Positions 54,156 to 61,597 of a stretch of 64,000 nt of DNA are shown piece by piece (position 1 is the stretch's first letter; the number at the start of each line of letters is the position of its first letter). The notes below the pieces were generated by a model. The model saw nothing but the letters and a program-made list of their open reading frames with translations. It did no database searches and was not told the origin of the DNA. Source of the stretch: Paludibacteraceae bacterium (GTDB lineage: Bacteria; Bacteroidota; Bacteroidia; Bacteroidales; Paludibacteraceae). The DNA lies in contig JAGCWA010000028.1 of assembly GCA_017962085.1 (NCBI GenBank), positions 62,001 through 126,000 on the forward strand. Reading direction: 5' to 3'. The position numbers were made by a program, and so were the translations under genes.

Positions 54156-54491
54156 TGCTCTAGGTGAAACCCTACGTAACAGGGGCAACACATTCATCAC
54201 TACGCAAAAAAACATCAGCGACTTACATGCTAAAGAGTCTATCTACCTTAAACACCCCGACTTTTACATTAATTGCCATATCGATTGTATTTTTTAAGCA
54301 ATAATAAATATATTTGTGAAATCGCATTGCCGAATCCGTCGCCATAGACGCACGGATAGAAGCTACGAGCCACAAGGGAAAGTTCCTCCTCGCCGGACGC
54401 TCTCCCCCACTCTTTGCCAGCCTTGTGACTGACAAGGGCGAAGCCGTGCCCGACTGGTGTGTTCCTAGCATGAAATATATCGTTGAAACCA
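54156..54491. other. Intergenic region with GC-rich leader block
   Basis: An AT-rich start holds the promoter at 54284-54316. From 54320 to 54475 the sequence becomes GC-rich, containing CACAAGG/CCTTGTG (54383-54389/54420-54426) as a long-range stem. The minus strand here reads as a peptide of about 50 residues with plausible composition, but no start, so either a structured leader or a decayed gene fragment. Confidence 0.45.
54284..54316 (+). promoter_or_regulatory. Promoter of the Sel1/A2M gene pair
   Basis: ATTG (54284-54287), a 21-nt spacer and TATATTTG (54309-54316), an exact -7 box. It gives a leader of about 165 nt. Confidence 0.6.
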
Positions 54492-55673
54492 ATGGATAAC
54501 AATATCTTAGGCTGTACTGTAATCATATACCCTGATTGTGACGAGTCCGAAGAGAAGAAATTAGAGCGGGACAGGATCGGGAAGGAATTTCGTACCCTAA
54601 TCTGGGGAGAAGACGGAGAGGGCGGCATCGCCCAAAAACTGAAGGATATCCCCTACGAACCATACGGTAATGATTTGGAATTCATATTGTTGGATTTTCA
54701 AGTCACCCCGACAGCGTATGTGCGCGATGCGATAAAGGATGTGGACGGTTATAGCAAAAAGGAAAAGTCCATAGGCGTCAACATCATCATTGAGGAGGAT
54801 TTCTTCACCTTGTCCCAAGAGGAACAATTCAATCATGTGAAAAGGGCGATTCTAAGCAGATTAGACATGCTCAAAAGAACCGTCACGAGGAGAAAATTGG
54901 ATACTGACATCGATAAATTGACAAGTACAGTCGATGACCTCCTGAAGGGTCCGCTGACCTCCACAACCCACAAGGAGCCTGCCAACAGGGTGGATCCGCC
55001 GGAGCCAATCGAACCGATTTGTGCGCTGACCCCCAAAAGCAAGGAGAGTGAAGAGGAGGTGGCCAAGCTCATTGAGCTGGCAGAACAGGGGGATGCCGTG
55101 GCGCTAAAAAGAGTGGCGGATTGTTACTACGATGGCATCGGCATCGAGCTGGACCTCACGAAAGCGGCGGAGTGGTATGGCAAGATAGTTGAGCAAGGGG
55201 ATCCAGAGGTGCTGAGACGAATAGGCTTCTGCCATTACCAGAAAAGAGAGTTTGAGAAGGCCTTGGAATTATGGCGGGAAGCCGCGGCGCAAGGGAGTGT
55301 GGTGGCCTATCGGAATTTGGGCAACTGCTATAATTTCGGATGTGGTGTGGACCGAAATTGTGAGAAGGCGGTTGAACTGTACACCATAGCGGCGGAGCAA
55401 GGGGATGCAATAGCGCAATACAACCTGGCTTACAGCTACCATAGTGGCGAAGGCGCTCGGAAGGATGAAGCGAAAGCCGCAGAATGGTACGCGAAGGCTG
55501 CCGAGCAAGGCCTTGCCGAAGCGCAGTACAGCTTGGGCATCCGCTACTTTAAAGGGGAAGGCGTTCCCGTAGATTATGAGAAAGCGGCGGAATGGTGCAA
55601 GAAAGCCGCCAAGCAAGGGGACAAACAGGCAAGTAGCCTTTTGCGGTATTTGCGCAAATACAAACTGTCATAA
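54483..55673 (+). CDS. Sel1-repeat protein with unidentified N-terminal domain
   Basis: 396 residues (393 from the second Met at 54492). Residues 1-150 form an alpha/beta domain (NILGCTVIIYPDCDESEEKK, LEFILLDFQVTPTAYVRDAI, GVNIIIEEDFFTLSQEEQFNHVKRAILSRLDMLKRTV) with no signal peptide, so it is cytoplasmic; I do not recognise it. After a proline-rich linker come about six Sel1 repeats (185-385: AKLIELAEQGDAVALKRVADCYYDG, AAEWYAKAAEQGLAEAQYSLG and so on), which mediate protein-protein contacts. The general look, a small strand/helix domain ending in a helix with Leu/Lys, resembles immunity proteins of polymorphic-toxin systems, but this is only a suspicion. The A2M gene starts 11 nt after its stop. 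Confidence 0.8.
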   Translation: MKPMDNNILGCTVIIYPDCDESEEKKLERDRIGKEFRTLIWGEDGEGGIAQKLKDIPYEPYGNDLEFILLDFQVTPTAYVRDAIKDVDGYSKKEKSIGVNIIIEEDFFTLSQEEQFNHVKRAILSRLDMLKRTVTRRKLDTDIDKLTSTVDDLLKGPLTSTTHKEPANRVDPPEPIEPICALTPKSKESEEEVAKLIELAEQGDAVALKRVADCYYDGIGIELDLTKAAEWYGKIVEQGDPEVLRRIGFCHYQKREFEKALELWREAAAQGSVVAYRNLGNCYNFGCGVDRNCEKAVELYTIAAEQGDAIAQYNLAYSYHSGEGARKDEAKAAEWYAKAAEQGLAEAQYSLGIRYFKGEGVPVDYEKAAEWCKKAAKQGDKQASSLLRYLRKYKLS

Positions 55674-55684
55674 AGAAAAAAAAT

Positions 55685-58600
55685 ATGAGGAATTTTACAC
55701 TACTCCTTTTAGTTTGGCTATCATGGACAGCCACCTTCGGATCATCCCCCAATTTTTATAAGGACTATTACAGCCCTGTTTATGTCTTCCGACTCAATAA
55801 TGAATTGACGGATGAAGTGTTTTCGCACGCATCGGACGACAATATTAAAATCTCCGATGAGGTTTTCTCGAAGATCGTGGAAGGCAATATGTTAGTGGCT
55901 CAGTTTGAAGAGAAATATTCTTTTTCAAGAACGAAACTCAGGGTGGATTCAATGGCGCCTGGCAACTATCTCCTGGCCCGTTTGGATGGGAAGAGAATCT
56001 CTTATGATTATCACGCTGTCTCTCCTTTCCGAATCGCCTTGTCGAAGGATAACGAGAAACTGACTTTCTTTTTGTATGATAGCTTAGGACATGTCTTGCC
56101 GGATGCGGAGGTTTCTATAAATGACAAACCGATGCCTTATAATGCTACGACGCAACGTTATGAAACGAAAAAACAGTATGTTCATGCCAATGTGCGCATT
56201 TCCCATCAGGGAAATCTTTTCTATTATAATGTTGCTCAGGATCGATATCGGCGTGAGAATTCGCCCAATCGAAAGAATGGGTTTTCTAAGTTCTTCATCA
56301 CAGTGGGTCGTGTCGTGAAGGATCCCGTGGTCTCTGTCAGAGAGGAGGATCCCGTGGGTTATGTGGCTAAGTTTGGACGCTTGGCTTGGAAAATAGGTGA
56401 CCGCATTGATGGCTACAATGAAGACAATGAATATGATTATCGCAGTGAATTCAGGGAGTACTATAACTACGATACGGGAGAGTATATGGATTTGGAAGAA
56501 TTGGAAGATCGGGATTGGCTCCGTTATCACAAAGTGATGAAAAAATGTGTAAGGCGCGATCTACGACATAACCGCGAGATGGATTGGGAAGAAAAACGTT
56601 TTTATGATCGTTATGGGAATAGCAAGACAAGGCGTAGATCAAAGATAAGCGGCGGTGTGGTATTGGGCCAGCCGAAGTACAAACCGAATGATACCGTCCG
56701 CGTGAAGGGATCTATCTACCGGAAGAACCGTCGATACAATCGTCCGGTGTCAGTTTGGCTTACGGATAATAATAGGCTGAAAAAACGATTGAAACCCTGT
56801 GCCGATGGTGTTTATACGTATGATTTTGTTTTGACCGATTCCCTGAAGTTGCAGTTGGACAAAAGATACTATGTCTCTTTTGTGGGTAAAAGAAAAAAAT
56901 GGGAATTTTGTACCGGCTTCACGTACGAGGATTACGTTTTGCATGACGCCACTTTGGAGGCATCGTACGACCAACCCACCTATTATAAGGGGGATAGCAT
57001 CCGTGTGAAGGTAAAGGCGAAGGATGCCAATGGACTTCCTCTCGCGGATGCTTTGGTGAAGGTTACCCTCCAATTGAAAGGAATAGATTCACTTTTGGAG
57101 ATGCGCTCCTACTATTCCGTGGAACTCGCCACTCAAAGTATGGTGACCAATGGGAAGGAGGATTTGACTTTTGCTTTCCCTCCTTCAATCGCAGGGGGGA
57201 ACAATATTGTATTCGCTGCCGAGGTGACACTTTCCATGCCGGATGGAAAGGTGGAGGAGAAAAGGCTGTCCAATCAAAAATATTACACAGGGAAGCATAG
57301 TATAGACATCTCACTCAGTCGGGATTCTCTTTGGGCGGTGGCTCAATACAATGGCAAAGACACGGTCGGCAAGGCCGCTGTTTTTGTGAGGGATCTCTTT
57401 GGCAACCAAATCCATCTGTTGGACACCCTGTTGCCTTGCAAATTACGCGTGGAGCCATCTTACGCCAGCTATTTGTTCAAGATGGCTCACGCTTCAGAAT
57501 ATTATAAGGTTCCCTCTTCCGCCTCTATGGTGTCCGTACAATGGAAGCAATCGGGAGACAGTCTCATCCCTTCGATTACCAATTTATTGCACCTGCCGAT
57601 GGTGTGTTATGTGGTCAAGGATGGAGAGTTGATCTTTAAGGGCAATGACAAGGAGTTGCCCGCCTTCTATCCTTGGGATAGGGAGAAATCCTATGTTCTG
57701 AAATCCAATGTGCTTTGGGCAGGGCAAGTCATGGAATATGAGGATGTTGTTCGTGTGCCAAGCAAGCGACAGCTGCATATTGCGGTGGATGAACCTTCCG
57801 TGATTGTCCCGGGAATGAGTTGCGAGATGGAGGTGCAGGTGACCGATGCGGAGGGAAAACCTGTGAAGGGAGCCGATGTGACCGCCTATGCCGTCAATAG
57901 CCAATTCAAAGCGAAATCACCCAACTGGAATCATTCAGGCAACTATCGGGATATCCCGATGGTAGACTACAAAAAGGAATTGTGGACGACGCCTTCTGCT
58001 TATTTGAATAGTGCCTACCACTCCGCATGGAGAAAGATTGATGCCATCGACACGATAGCTTTCTATTCTATTCGCTATCCTGCGCGCGATTCCATCCATC
58101 AGTATAGCTACTATCCGGAAGATTCCATCACACAGATATCTCCGCTTCTATGCAAAGATGGTGATGTGCAGGATGTGCATATCGCATACATTGATGATGT
58201 GCCTTGTTTTATCATGTCTGAAAATATTCCTTTTTCTTTCGCTATCACTCCCAATGAATACCATCGCATCCGATTAAGGACAAAAACGGCGGAATATACC
58301 ATAGACTCCGTAAAAGTGGAGGCCAACAAACGTACGATTCTGAGTGTTGACGTCAACACGACCTCCCCGTTTGTGAAGAAGGAAGAGAGAGATGGTCAAC
58401 TGACCGATAAGGAGTTGGAGCAATTGAAACCTTACATCATGCTCTTCGAGAAATCCGAATATTATCCGCAAGGGCAATTGGTGAGAGAGGATGGCTCACT
58501 TCTTTTTGTCAACGAGGGAAAGAACATTAATCGTTCAGGGTCAATCATCCTTAAACGCTTTGCGGGACCGATATTGGATTCGGTTCGTTGGATGACTAAA

Positions 58601-61597
58601 TATTTCGATGTGAAGACGAAGGTGGACCACAATCTTGTTTACTCGTATGACACTGTCAATCATCGGCCGGTAACCCGGGTGGCCGAGGAAAAGGATTTCC
58701 CGCAGTTACTTTACACGACTAACCACAATTCTCTGAATGGAGGGTTGTGGACGTTGGAGCGGATGGAGAGGGTGCAGCGGCAGAAAAATGGCTCAACGGA
58801 GAAACCGCAGGTGTACGCTTTGCTGCGGGATTATCCGAAGGAGAAGAAGTCGGGTAATTATCTGGAGCTTCGATCCGATAAACCAATTTATCGTTGCGTG
58901 TTGATTCCATATAAAAACTATGCGTCATTTGCAGTGACAGAGACCCAATCTTGGTATTATAGGAATCTTCAGAGATTCGAGGACATAGAAGCGGGTCTAT
59001 ACCGTGCCTATTTGATGAACGAAGATACCACCTGCTATCGGTTGGACTCAGTGAAAGTGGAGCCGAATAAACGTTTCATGGTTCGTTTTGACACGAAAAA
59101 GGATCGCATTATGGCTGATTCGTTCGCTTTTCGCTTGAGAAATCTTCTCACATATACTGCCAAAGGGTGGCGTGATAGTCTTGCCTTTGACCAAGCGGAG
59201 AGATTGTTGTCCCGATACCTTTGGACCAACGATCCTCTTCCGTTCGTGGCTTTGCGTGATTCTAGCGTGAAGAATGGATATGACATGCTGGAAATCGAAG
59301 TTGGTCCTCACCGGAAAAAAGATATTACAGGTTCGACATGCCAAGTCAGTTCATCACCCATTGCATCAGTTGAGCAAGCCCTGCAAGGTCGTGTATCAGG
59401 GCTTCGAGTCACTGCTGCAAGTGGTCAGACTGGAAGTTCCTCTGCGATTAAAATTAGAGGGGTCTCATCGTTGACTGGTAGTTCCTCTCCACTCTTTGTG
59501 GTGGATGGAATGCCACTTTTGGGAGATGATCTGTCTAAGATTAATCCCGCTGATATCTGGTCTATGGAGGTGTTGAAGGATGCCTCAGCCACCGCCATTT
59601 ACGGTAGCCGTGCGGCGAATGGTGTGGTTATGATAACAACAAAGAAAGGCAGCAAAAATTCTGAGGCAAAGGAGGAATCGACTGATTACGCTACGCTTCG
59701 CACCCACTTCTCCGACCAAGGTTTCTGGAAGCCGGCATTGACGACCGACAAGGAGGGTAAGGTGCGCTTTGCTGTCACCTTCCCGGATAATATTACCCGT
59801 TGGCAGACAATCTATTTGGCGGATGCGCCTGTCAAGAAATATATTGCTACAGGTTCTACCGAGGGTTCCATCAAATCCTTTGTGCCACTCTCTGCCAGAT
59901 TATACCTGCCTGAGTTCCTGGTGCAGGGGGATATCTGCATGGCACGTGGCAAGGTGATGAACTATGTGCAAGACACAGTGCAGTTGACCAGCTCCTTCTC
60001 CGTGAACGACTCTTTGATCGCCACCTATCCACACCGTTGCGCTTCGACGTTGACCGATACGCTCCAACTCTCTGCCAAGGCAGATTCACTCTCCGTGGTT
60101 TATCAATTCGTTTCGGAGAACCGTTTCAACGATGGAGAGAGACGGAAGGTGAAGATTATCCCGCAGGGCGTCACCTGTACCGATGGACGCTTCGCCATCT
60201 TGCGTGACACGTTGCGGATGTCACTTCAGTCGGAGAAGACGGATAGCGTGACGATCCGTGTGATGAGCACGCAGTCTGATTTGTTGCAGGACGAGGTCTC
60301 CATGCTGACGCATTATCCATACGGATGCAATGAGCAAACCGCCTCTAAACTGATTGGTTTCATGACGGCCAACCAGAACCCGAACCTCACGAAACATCAA
60401 CGCAGAACGAACGAGAAGAAGATCGAAGAACTTGTAAAGACCTTGAAGGAGAGACAATTGATGAATGGACTTTGGGGGTGGTGGAAATTCGACGAATCAA
60501 GCTATTGGATTAGTCGCTACATTGTGGAGACGCTTCAGAAATATCACATCGACTTCCCGAAGAATAGAACAATAGAGACATGTAAAGATCGAATCAGTGA
60601 AAACAGATCAGCCGCTGATAAGCTGTTCGGCTTGTCGGTGCTCCATTCGTTAGGCGAGAAGATGGATTATCAGACCCTAGTGGGCAGTCTGGATACTGTG
60701 AAAAACCTGACGCTCCAAGAGCGCTTGGACTTGGCTGAACTCAAGGCGAAATGTGGCTTGCCGGTTGATTACGAATGGTTGAATAAGTATCGCGAAGAGA
60801 CGATGAATGGATCTGTCTATTACAAGTTTAATAATGGCCAATATGTGTATGACAACGATATGATGAACACGTTGCAGGTTTATCGCATCCTACAAGCCGA
60901 TTCTCTCAGGGATTCCAAAGCCGAGAGGCAGAAGATACGCGACTATTTCTACAACCAAAAAGCGCTTAGCCGCACCTCCCACTGGCGCAACACGTACGAG
61001 TCGGCCATGATTCTCCGCACCTTGTCGAATGACATGAAGCAAAGCTTGGGAGAGGGCAAAAAGATAGTACGTTTCTCAGGCGCCATGCAGGAGGAGATAG
61101 ACCAGTTCCCGTATGAACGGAAAGTACCGGCGAATGGAGTGCTCTCCATCTCTCAGAATGGCACATCACCGGTCTATCTCTCCGTTTCTTCCACCTATTG
61201 GGATCGTCCCGACAAGGCGAAAGGGAGAGGATTCTCCATCCAAACCAGCTTCTCCGATTCCGTTTTGATGATAAGCGAGCGAGTGAAGATGAATGTGGTG
61301 GTGACGGTCGAGAAGGATGCGGACTACGTGCTGATTCATGTGCCGATCCCTGCAGGTTGCACCTATGCGAGCAAAGAACGGAGTTGGGAAAACAACGAAG
61401 TCTACAGGGAATACTACAAGGAGCACACGAATATCTTCTGCTCGAAACTGAATCGGGGCGTCTATGAGTTTACGATAGAGCTAGTCCCTTACACTCAAGG
61501 CGATTATGTGCTTAATCCAGCCAAGGTGGAGCAGATGTATTCCCCTGAGTTCAATGCTTGTACGGAGATGAAGAGGGTGAAAATCGGAGGGAAATAA
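55685..61597 (+). CDS. Alpha-2-macroglobulin with an internal SusC-type TonB plug domain
   Basis: 1970 residues. An N-terminal signal peptide without a lipobox Cys (MRNFTLLLLVWLSWTATFGS) is followed by macroglobulin domains, with the MG2 pattern GQPKYKPNDTVRVKGSIYRKN around 325-345 and ASYDQPTYYKGDSIRVKVKAKD near 425. Residues about 1210-1326 are a full SusC/RagA-like plug (SVEQALQGRVSGLRVT, SSSPLFVVDGMPL, INPADIWSMEVLKDASATAIYGSRAANGVVMITT) without the 22-strand barrel. A2M resumes at HFSDQGFWKPALTTDKEGKVRFAVTFPDNITRW, then the thioester GCNEQ (Cys1548-Gln1551; GCGEQ in animals, GCLEQ in E. coli), the alpha/alpha barrel and receptor-type end. Bacterial A2M traps proteases in the envelope. 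The plug occupies the place expected for the bait region. Lower GC than the core genes. Confidence 0.9.
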   Translation: MRNFTLLLLVWLSWTATFGSSPNFYKDYYSPVYVFRLNNELTDEVFSHASDDNIKISDEVFSKIVEGNMLVAQFEEKYSFSRTKLRVDSMAPGNYLLARLDGKRISYDYHAVSPFRIALSKDNEKLTFFLYDSLGHVLPDAEVSINDKPMPYNATTQRYETKKQYVHANVRISHQGNLFYYNVAQDRYRRENSPNRKNGFSKFFITVGRVVKDPVVSVREEDPVGYVAKFGRLAWKIGDRIDGYNEDNEYDYRSEFREYYNYDTGEYMDLEELEDRDWLRYHKVMKKCVRRDLRHNREMDWEEKRFYDRYGNSKTRRRSKISGGVVLGQPKYKPNDTVRVKGSIYRKNRRYNRPVSVWLTDNNRLKKRLKPCADGVYTYDFVLTDSLKLQLDKRYYVSFVGKRKKWEFCTGFTYEDYVLHDATLEASYDQPTYYKGDSIRVKVKAKDANGLPLADALVKVTLQLKGIDSLLEMRSYYSVELATQSMVTNGKEDLTFAFPPSIAGGNNIVFAAEVTLSMPDGKVEEKRLSNQKYYTGKHSIDISLSRDSLWAVAQYNGKDTVGKAAVFVRDLFGNQIHLLDTLLPCKLRVEPSYASYLFKMAHASEYYKVPSSASMVSVQWKQSGDSLIPSITNLLHLPMVCYVVKDGELIFKGNDKELPAFYPWDREKSYVLKSNVLWAGQVMEYEDVVRVPSKRQLHIAVDEPSVIVPGMSCEMEVQVTDAEGKPVKGADVTAYAVNSQFKAKSPNWNHSGNYRDIPMVDYKKELWTTPSAYLNSAYHSAWRKIDAIDTIAFYSIRYPARDSIHQYSYYPEDSITQISPLLCKDGDVQDVHIAYIDDVPCFIMSENIPFSFAITPNEYHRIRLRTKTAEYTIDSVKVEANKRTILSVDVNTTSPFVKKEERDGQLTDKELEQLKPYIMLFEKSEYYPQGQLVREDGSLLFVNEGKNINRSGSIILKRFAGPILDSVRWMTKYFDVKTKVDHNLVYSYDTVNHRPVTRVAEEKDFPQLLYTTNHNSLNGGLWTLERMERVQRQKNGSTEKPQVYALLRDYPKEKKSGNYLELRSDKPIYRCVLIPYKNYASFAVTETQSWYYRNLQRFEDIEAGLYRAYLMNEDTTCYRLDSVKVEPNKRFMVRFDTKKDRIMADSFAFRLRNLLTYTAKGWRDSLAFDQAERLLSRYLWTNDPLPFVALRDSSVKNGYDMLEIEVGPHRKKDITGSTCQVSSSPIASVEQALQGRVSGLRVTAASGQTGSSSAIKIRGVSSLTGSSSPLFVVDGMPLLGDDLSKINPADIWSMEVLKDASATAIYGSRAANGVVMITTKKGSKNSEAKEESTDYATLRTHFSDQGFWKPALTTDKEGKVRFAVTFPDNITRWQTIYLADAPVKKYIATGSTEGSIKSFVPLSARLYLPEFLVQGDICMARGKVMNYVQDTVQLTSSFSVNDSLIATYPHRCASTLTDTLQLSAKADSLSVVYQFVSENRFNDGERRKVKIIPQGVTCTDGRFAILRDTLRMSLQSEKTDSVTIRVMSTQSDLLQDEVSMLTHYPYGCNEQTASKLIGFMTANQNPNLTKHQRRTNEKKIEELVKTLKERQLMNGLWGWWKFDESSYWISRYIVETLQKYHIDFPKNRTIETCKDRISENRSAADKLFGLSVLHSLGEKMDYQTLVGSLDTVKNLTLQERLDLAELKAKCGLPVDYEWLNKYREETMNGSVYYKFNNGQYVYDNDMMNTLQVYRILQADSLRDSKAERQKIRDYFYNQKALSRTSHWRNTYESAMILRTLSNDMKQSLGEGKKIVRFSGAMQEEIDQFPYERKVPANGVLSISQNGTSPVYLSVSSTYWDRPDKAKGRGFSIQTSFSDSVLMISERVKMNVVVTVEKDADYVLIHVPIPAGCTYASKERSWENNEVYREYYKEHTNIFCSKLNRGVYEFTIELVPYTQGDYVLNPAKVEQMYSPEFNACTEMKRVKIGGK

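Follow-up and report, generated by a model that had tools for sequence, protein, structure and literature searches.

A SusC-type plug in the bait slot of an alpha-2-macroglobulin

Why would an alpha-2-macroglobulin (A2M) carry the plug of a SusC-type TonB receptor at the very place where proteins of this kind hold their bait? The question is raised by P0001, a protein of 1970 amino acids encoded in the window, by which we mean the whole analyzed stretch of 64,000 nucleotides from a Paludibacteraceae bacterium (contig JAGCWA010000028.1). Bait regions are commonly described as disordered. P0001 is a thioester-type bacterial A2M whose bait slot is filled by a SusC-type receptor plug of its own lineage. 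The bait may act as a self-mimic, or decoy; this is the answer we tentatively prefer, at a little less than an even chance. A literature search that left most subscription papers outside its reach found none linking macroglobulin or MG2 with a TonB box, a TonB-receptor plug or a Bacteroidetes plug domain.

The gene is a single uninterrupted open reading frame (ORF) on the forward strand, as are all features of P0001 given below by window coordinates, with its ATG at 55685 and its stop at 61597, as an earlier note on this sequence had read it. The SusC/RagA plug that the same note had placed before the A2M domain was recovered at residues 1208-1326 (59306..59662) by three profiles. PF07715 (plug) matched residues 1221-1314 with 63.3 bits against a cut-off of 23.9, covering profile positions 17-107 of 107, while TIGR04056 matched residues 1208-1326 (E 3e-45, model positions 88-210 of 981) with 155 bits, its cut-off of 368 bits being set for the full-length model and a lower score being expected without a barrel. 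The SusC/RagA signature TIGR04057 matched residues 1290-1320 (59552..59644), within the constrained C-terminal half of the plug, with 64.1 bits against a cut-off of 46.2. Among solved structures, the nine best matches to the insert were SusC/RagA-type chains, aligned at their plugs. The absence of a beta-barrel, already remarked from the sequence, also held, as the A2M domain comes next and TIGR04056 is matched over its plug portion only; that the plug gates a channel within P0001 itself is ruled out, there being no barrel. The description of the plug as complete has to be divided: the plug itself is nearly complete, but the SusC module is not, as the N-terminal extension (NTE, PF13715) gave no match in P0001 and the TonB box is degenerate, though both occur in many relatives.

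The bait slot was placed with a core profile made from the region behind the plug (A3, 13 rows), which aligned with human A2M (6tav_A) from residue 730 onwards (TLRTHFSDQGFWKP against TVRKYFPETWIWDL) and likewise matched C3 and C5 chains. The human bait region comprises residues 690-728. In P0001 ten residues separate the end of the plug (1326) from the start, at 1337, of the strand aligned with human residue 730, so the insert sits in the bait slot; by this alignment the plug is confirmed as the occupant of the slot, the position suggested for it from the sequence. Behind it lie a short variable linker (residues 1327-1335, 59663..59689) and then the post-bait macroglobulin (MG) strand with the A2M domain (residues 1337-1440, 59693..60004), where PF00207 matched residues 1347-1434 with 45.4 bits against a cut-off of 21. 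A borderline match to the thioester domain (TED) followed at residues 1522-1620 (60248..60544; 22.2 bits, cut-off 22) and includes an intact CNEQ motif at residues 1548-1551 (60326..60337), so that both the A2M domain and the thioester of the earlier description were found. The bacterial A2M MG10 domain lies at residues 1864-1955 (61274..61549; 61.1 bits, cut-off 26.2). In a correction to the earlier description, neither PF01835 (MG2) nor PF07703 (bait-region domain) matched P0001 up to E 1 in the Pfam search; L051, a canonical A2M of the same genome, matched both. MG2 also scored under its cut-off in those clade members that were scanned, and it is from the relatives that we infer MG domains upstream of the plug in P0001.

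Compared with known systems, P0001 shares an A2M domain, a TED with CxEQ, MG10 and a slot before the A2M strand with the type I proteins YfhM/ECAM of E. coli and Salmonella A2M. These have a short disordered bait, whereas P0001 has a receptor plug, shows no lipobox Cys and belongs to a clade far from the canonical A2Ms. In complement C3 and C5 the same slot holds a whole domain as well, the anaphylatoxin, but the insert of P0001 is a TonB-receptor plug and no dedicated convertase is known for it. From SusC/RagA receptors, whose plug and signature it shares, P0001 is set apart by the missing barrel, the lost NTE and the degenerate TonB box.

Self-protein pieces in the bait slots of another order

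P0001 could be the extreme case, with a whole plug, of a wider pattern in which the baits of Bacteroidota A2Ms are mosaics of their own exposed envelope segments (NTE, TonB box, plug, TonB linker, GldN and OmpA linker), a proposal that we also hold tentatively and regard as somewhat less likely to be right than wrong. It draws largely on the order of genome G445, in whose canonical-type A2M, L156, the bait slot contains NTE, TonB box and plug. L156 grouped with nine canonical A2Ms at 100/100, with three other canonical rows elsewhere on a long branch and a bootstrap that is not fully settled. The window's clade and the L156 lineage may have acquired the module independently or by common descent.

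Related A2Ms were present in 44 of the 196 genomes of this order, with 47 matches in total. The slots of all 47 were analyzed; as they come from one order and mostly from two families they are not independent. The slot was defined as the 170 residues before the core, an NTE further upstream being counted with the rest of the protein, and the slot counts use 123 of 125 A2Ms, with L051 left out for want of an anchor and L054 for want of the core. Among the 47 slots, the SusC-plug profile matched 16, in some cases over no more than its TonB-box end, and the TonB-box pattern occurred in 21 against a mean of 0.5 in shuffled slots of the same set; the patterns were written after examples had been seen and miss variants recognized by eye in L054 and L199. 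Profiles of the source genes detected a TonB linker in five slots, GldN in four and an OmpA linker in four (E 7e-6 to 5e-18), altogether in 12 distinct slots, with a TonB piece and a GldN piece together in L181 and two OmpA slots, L211 and L213, identical across their last 60 residues. At least one piece of any kind was found in 38 of the 47, while counts of slots with two kinds of piece overlap because the plug profile spans the TonB box.

Outside the slots, the same 123 proteins gave one match for the plug, none for TonB, GldN or OmpA, and three for the box, and 20 rounds of shuffled slots gave means per 123 of 0.1 (plug), 0 (TonB), 0.05 (GldN), 0 (OmpA) and 1.45 (box). The slot pieces are homologous to the bacteria's own envelope proteins and nearly absent elsewhere in the same proteins, which is the pattern that we propose as the mark of self-mimicry. 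Genes of the same genome were matched by slots in five of the five genomes searched for GldN, five of five for TonB and four of four for OmpA-like proteins, and Pfam checks of source genes returned PF19841 for one GldN (1.5e-55), PF03544 for one TonB (1.4e-8) and PF00691 for two OmpA (1.5e-19 and 1.7e-16). The pieces identified, the plug among them, all derive from envelope proteins, though the search for sources was not unbiased.

If the bait is a self-mimic, a protease that enters the periplasm and is able to cut the exposed parts of import and secretion machines would cut the mimic instead, either in the barrel-less plug or in the neighbouring linkers, which are unconstrained. With no barrel around it, a plug is probably loosely folded and readily cut. 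The cut would release the thioester domain, which would capture the protease covalently, while in thioester-free relatives only steric trapping could follow. One report describes how cutting of a disordered A2M bait frees the bait and exposes the thioester (PMC4498604). A bait of this kind would explain the slot position, the variety of self proteins, the loose constraint on the linkers and the presence of the thioester in the clade. If true, the sequence of a bait could be read as a list of the envelope machines that need defence, the evolution of protease traps would follow a simple rule, plugs in barrel-less proteins would be accounted for, and the function of Bacteroidota A2Ms would become directly testable.

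The frequency of the TonB box in these slots also bears on a different explanation, namely that NTE, TonB box and plug are docking elements that recruit A2Ms and other periplasmic proteins to the TonB/SusC machinery, the slot being a permissive insertion site and P0001 a derived form that has lost NTE and TonB box. We regard docking as possible but on the whole unlikely. It agrees with the 21 slots that contain the box, several of them without NTE, plug or thioester Cys, but the TonB-linker, GldN and OmpA pieces do not fit docking to TonB. According to a study on SusC, the TonB box is required for SusC function, and the NTE corresponds to PF13715 and has an unknown role (PMC7782687).

Conservation of the plug among close relatives

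A2M relatives of P0001 were found in ten of the 15 other genomes of the genus, nine of them close (a number being truncated at contig ends) and one divergent (in G008), while the remaining five genomes gave best matches that were only plug-sized. One more close relative was found in another genus of the same family (G018). The full plug is present in all 11 sequences formed by P0001 and these ten close relatives. In nine of the ten, all from other genomes, the junction from plug to A2M lies in one frame, and the tenth, L054, reaches a contig end just past the plug. That nine relatives, each in an independent genome, have this junction, together with the strong profile scores, leaves practically no probability for an assembly chimera or chance, and a chimera is ruled out as far as sequence allows. 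The two findings that the earlier note had named as speaking against its description, the lack of a plug match at residues 1210-1326 and a chimeric assembly, were thus not obtained.

Identity between P0001 and six full-length relatives was 80-93% in the A2M domain and 64-72% in the C-terminal half of the plug, compared with 37-47% in the stretch before the plug and 12-33% in the linker behind it. The ratio of nonsynonymous to synonymous substitution (dN/dS) was estimated by Nei-Gojobori counting on five disjoint orthologue pairs from the window's genus, and recombination would disturb the estimates. Values of 0.15 for the A2M domain, 0.21 for the C-terminal rest, 0.34 for the MG body and 0.47 for residues 1011-1160 were obtained. 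The whole plug had a dN/dS of 0.52 (0.37-0.72), and all 1000 bootstrap replicates stayed below 1; the C-terminal half of the plug (residues 1261-1326) had 0.39 (95% interval 0.23-0.61) and the N-terminal half 0.79 (0.54-1.19), an interval that spans 1. The intervals also span 1 for the flanks, which comprise the variable linker with the degenerate, former TonB-box region (residues 1161-1219, 59165..59341; 0.84, 0.58-1.23) and the post-plug linker (1.09, from only 11 codons). The C-terminal half of the plug is under purifying selection in the window's genus, and its immediate flanks are without detectable constraint.

These estimates bear on a further alternative, according to which the slots contain recombination debris: a tolerant slot, the carboxypeptidase-like domain resembling the NTE and abundant SusC genes would favor recombination into the slot, and the pieces would then decay without function. 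Such an origin is conceivable, although we rate it as improbable rather than likely. It is compatible with the unconstrained flanks and with the presence of bait pieces in thioester-free A2Ms, but debris would not be expected to show the selection measured on the plug, nor to have kept a full plug in all 11 close sequences, and the identified pieces, subject to the bias in the source search, all come from envelope proteins.

Residues invariant in SusC plugs are retained among the 11 close sequences as well, the Arg of the IRG motif in ten and both residues of the YG pair in all of them. Such retention would agree with a plug acting in trans, to fill or gate the barrel of a SusC. We nevertheless consider this very improbable, as no partner gene recurs nearby and some relatives keep just NTE and TonB box. 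Apart from A2M itself, no gene family was common to more than four of the 30 gene neighbourhoods compared, which equally argues against docking. So does the TonB box of the close group, which by eye is degenerate in 10 of the 11 sequences, including P0001, and lies in a region without detectable constraint. In L054, the relative from G003, a tandem duplication (YANDYDDIDLSW) near residues 1195-1235 adjoins an intact TonB box.

Clade survey and plug tree

The core profile was run against 295 genomes of the window's order and gave 22 matches of at least 187 bits in 21 genomes, the next match scoring 87 bits. Among these 22, 11 had a full plug, three had NTE and TonB box with the plug lost or decayed, and eight had no SusC plug. 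A survey of 296 genomes across the phylum (G000 and G199 again included) added three more clade members outside the order, all with a plug. A table of 40 A2Ms, 39 from the window's clade and the canonical L156, included 28 with a full plug, which is not a frequency, as similarity to P0001 was in part the basis for inclusion. CNEQ is present in 33 of the 39 clade members, and two others end before the position of the motif. A scan of genome contigs with P0001 returned one weak Thermotogota relative and nothing else, and a scan of viral contigs gave no match.

Several remote clade members have NTE, TonB box and plug, which together correspond to the periplasmic front part of SusC and stop where the barrel would start. 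The strict TonB-box pattern is kept in 13 of the 20 A2Ms with an NTE, including three of the five clade members that have an NTE without a full plug (L108, L110 and L112, but not L041a and L117), a retention that favors docking. On the other hand, the decay of plug and NTE is graded among members, as would be expected of debris. Two A2Ms have unusual plug segments: in L117 (G230), classed as having no plug, the slot by eye contains a plug stretch of another class of TonB receptor that the SusC plug profile missed, and in L040 the plug piece of the bait slot is accompanied by another, short one close to the N-terminus (residues 177-235).

In a plug tree of 60 rows, where long branches make the deep joins unsure, the 11 plugs of P0001 and its close relatives formed one group (97/88). 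The A2M plugs of the genus nested within a clade of SusC and DUF4139 plugs from the genus (96/87), while 13 remote A2M plugs fell outside. This placement fits the acquisition of a fresh plug by the close relatives from a SusC of their own lineage; the nesting can also be read in favor of debris.

Other barrel-less plug carriers

The genome of the window contains 14 plug matches, 13 of them above the cut-off. Three lie in proteins that are not receptors, namely P0001, a DUF4139 protein and a protein of 208 amino acids, while the other 11 belong to frames of 646-1087 codons. In the DUF4140/DUF4139 protein (L052:5268-7709, G000:C41) NTE and plug of SusC type are inserted within DUF4139, giving a barrel-less NTE-plug module in the genome of P0001, but in an unrelated host protein without trap domains. 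All 11 fetched proteins of this type have the plug, having been selected by plug match. Three DUF4139 plugs paired in the tree with a SusC plug of the same genome (99/91, 94/73 and 97/51), which suggests repeated replacement and thereby supports debris. The protein of 208 amino acids (L050:6848-7474, minus strand, G000:C48) has a Cys-rich N-terminus, by eye a possible membrane stretch, and a short plug-like end without a barrel. The second A2M of the window genome, L048:1-4071, lies at a contig end (G000:C41), and a stretch following a TonB-box-like piece in its slot resembles SusC with a marginal score.

A further family combines MG2 with a plug and is without a TED. By a manual count, 37 of 119 genomes had a match to it at E<=1e-15, and all 11 proteins examined, which had been picked by plug match or adjacency to an A2M, matched the plug (L149 weakly), about eight of them with a TonB-box-like stretch before the plug by eye. 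The plug of these P0002-type proteins is in the same slot as in P0001, and the strand behind it (LRxTIYWxP..TD..G) resembles that of P0001 by eye, with weak core-profile scores; unlike P0001, the proteins end after this post-bait strand and have no thioester domain. One of them, L107:11109-13568, is encoded immediately downstream of an A2M-plug gene, and the family is widespread in the order. The same module in this family and within DUF4139 proteins is what docking would lead one to expect.

Evidence weighing against a self-mimic bait

The earlier note had offered three roles for the insert, as bait, as docking piece or as decoy. The bait role is strengthened by the slot position and the decoy role by the TonB, GldN and OmpA pieces of relatives, while for docking the result is mixed, with the box kept in three of the five members that combine an NTE with the lack of a full plug, and degenerate in 10 of 11 close sequences. 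Several observations nevertheless weigh against the self-mimic bait. The thioester trap would be no reason for a plug in the TED-less MG and DUF4139 carriers, which on their domain content speak for docking instead, and the conservation of the plug's C-terminal half could be explained by folding alone. The TonB, GldN and OmpA pieces belong to another order than P0001, whose own residues 1000-1225 gave no further self piece when searched against its genome (one match at E 0.12), and the 31 canonical A2Ms of the window's order yielded just two weak matches to the plug profile, L048 and L079 (independent E 0.014 and 0.0016). The source profiles were chosen after the pieces had been seen, nine of the 47 slots matched no profile, and for the slot of L180, chosen for holding no known piece, no source gene was found in four genomes. 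The copy in the same genome was the best match in just two of 11 comparisons, so that the pieces do not track the individual genome. Finally, each of the 12 slots that contain a TonB, GldN or OmpA piece belongs to an A2M of family f123 in which CxEQ was not found where it is expected. In the order of G445, CxEQ is present at 15 of 18 loci outside f123 versus one of 29 within it (L173). This family (L176-L187, L208-L221, L226 and L227) consists of canonical A2Ms, some of which have slots containing pieces of self proteins, and 28 of its 29 loci are without CxEQ.

Further features of P0001 and its neighbourhood

The N-terminus of P0001 reads by eye as a signal-peptide-like stretch without Cys, and no lipobox was seen. 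An Ig/MG-like beta-sandwich, Big_1/MG4-like with scores under the Pfam cut-offs, lies at residues 713-752 (57821..57940). Directly upstream of the A2M gene, a TTG-started ORF at 54483-55673 of the window reads as Sel1-like, and three relatives (L043, L046 and L047) also have a Sel1-repeat gene next to their A2M gene, Pfam-confirmed in L043.
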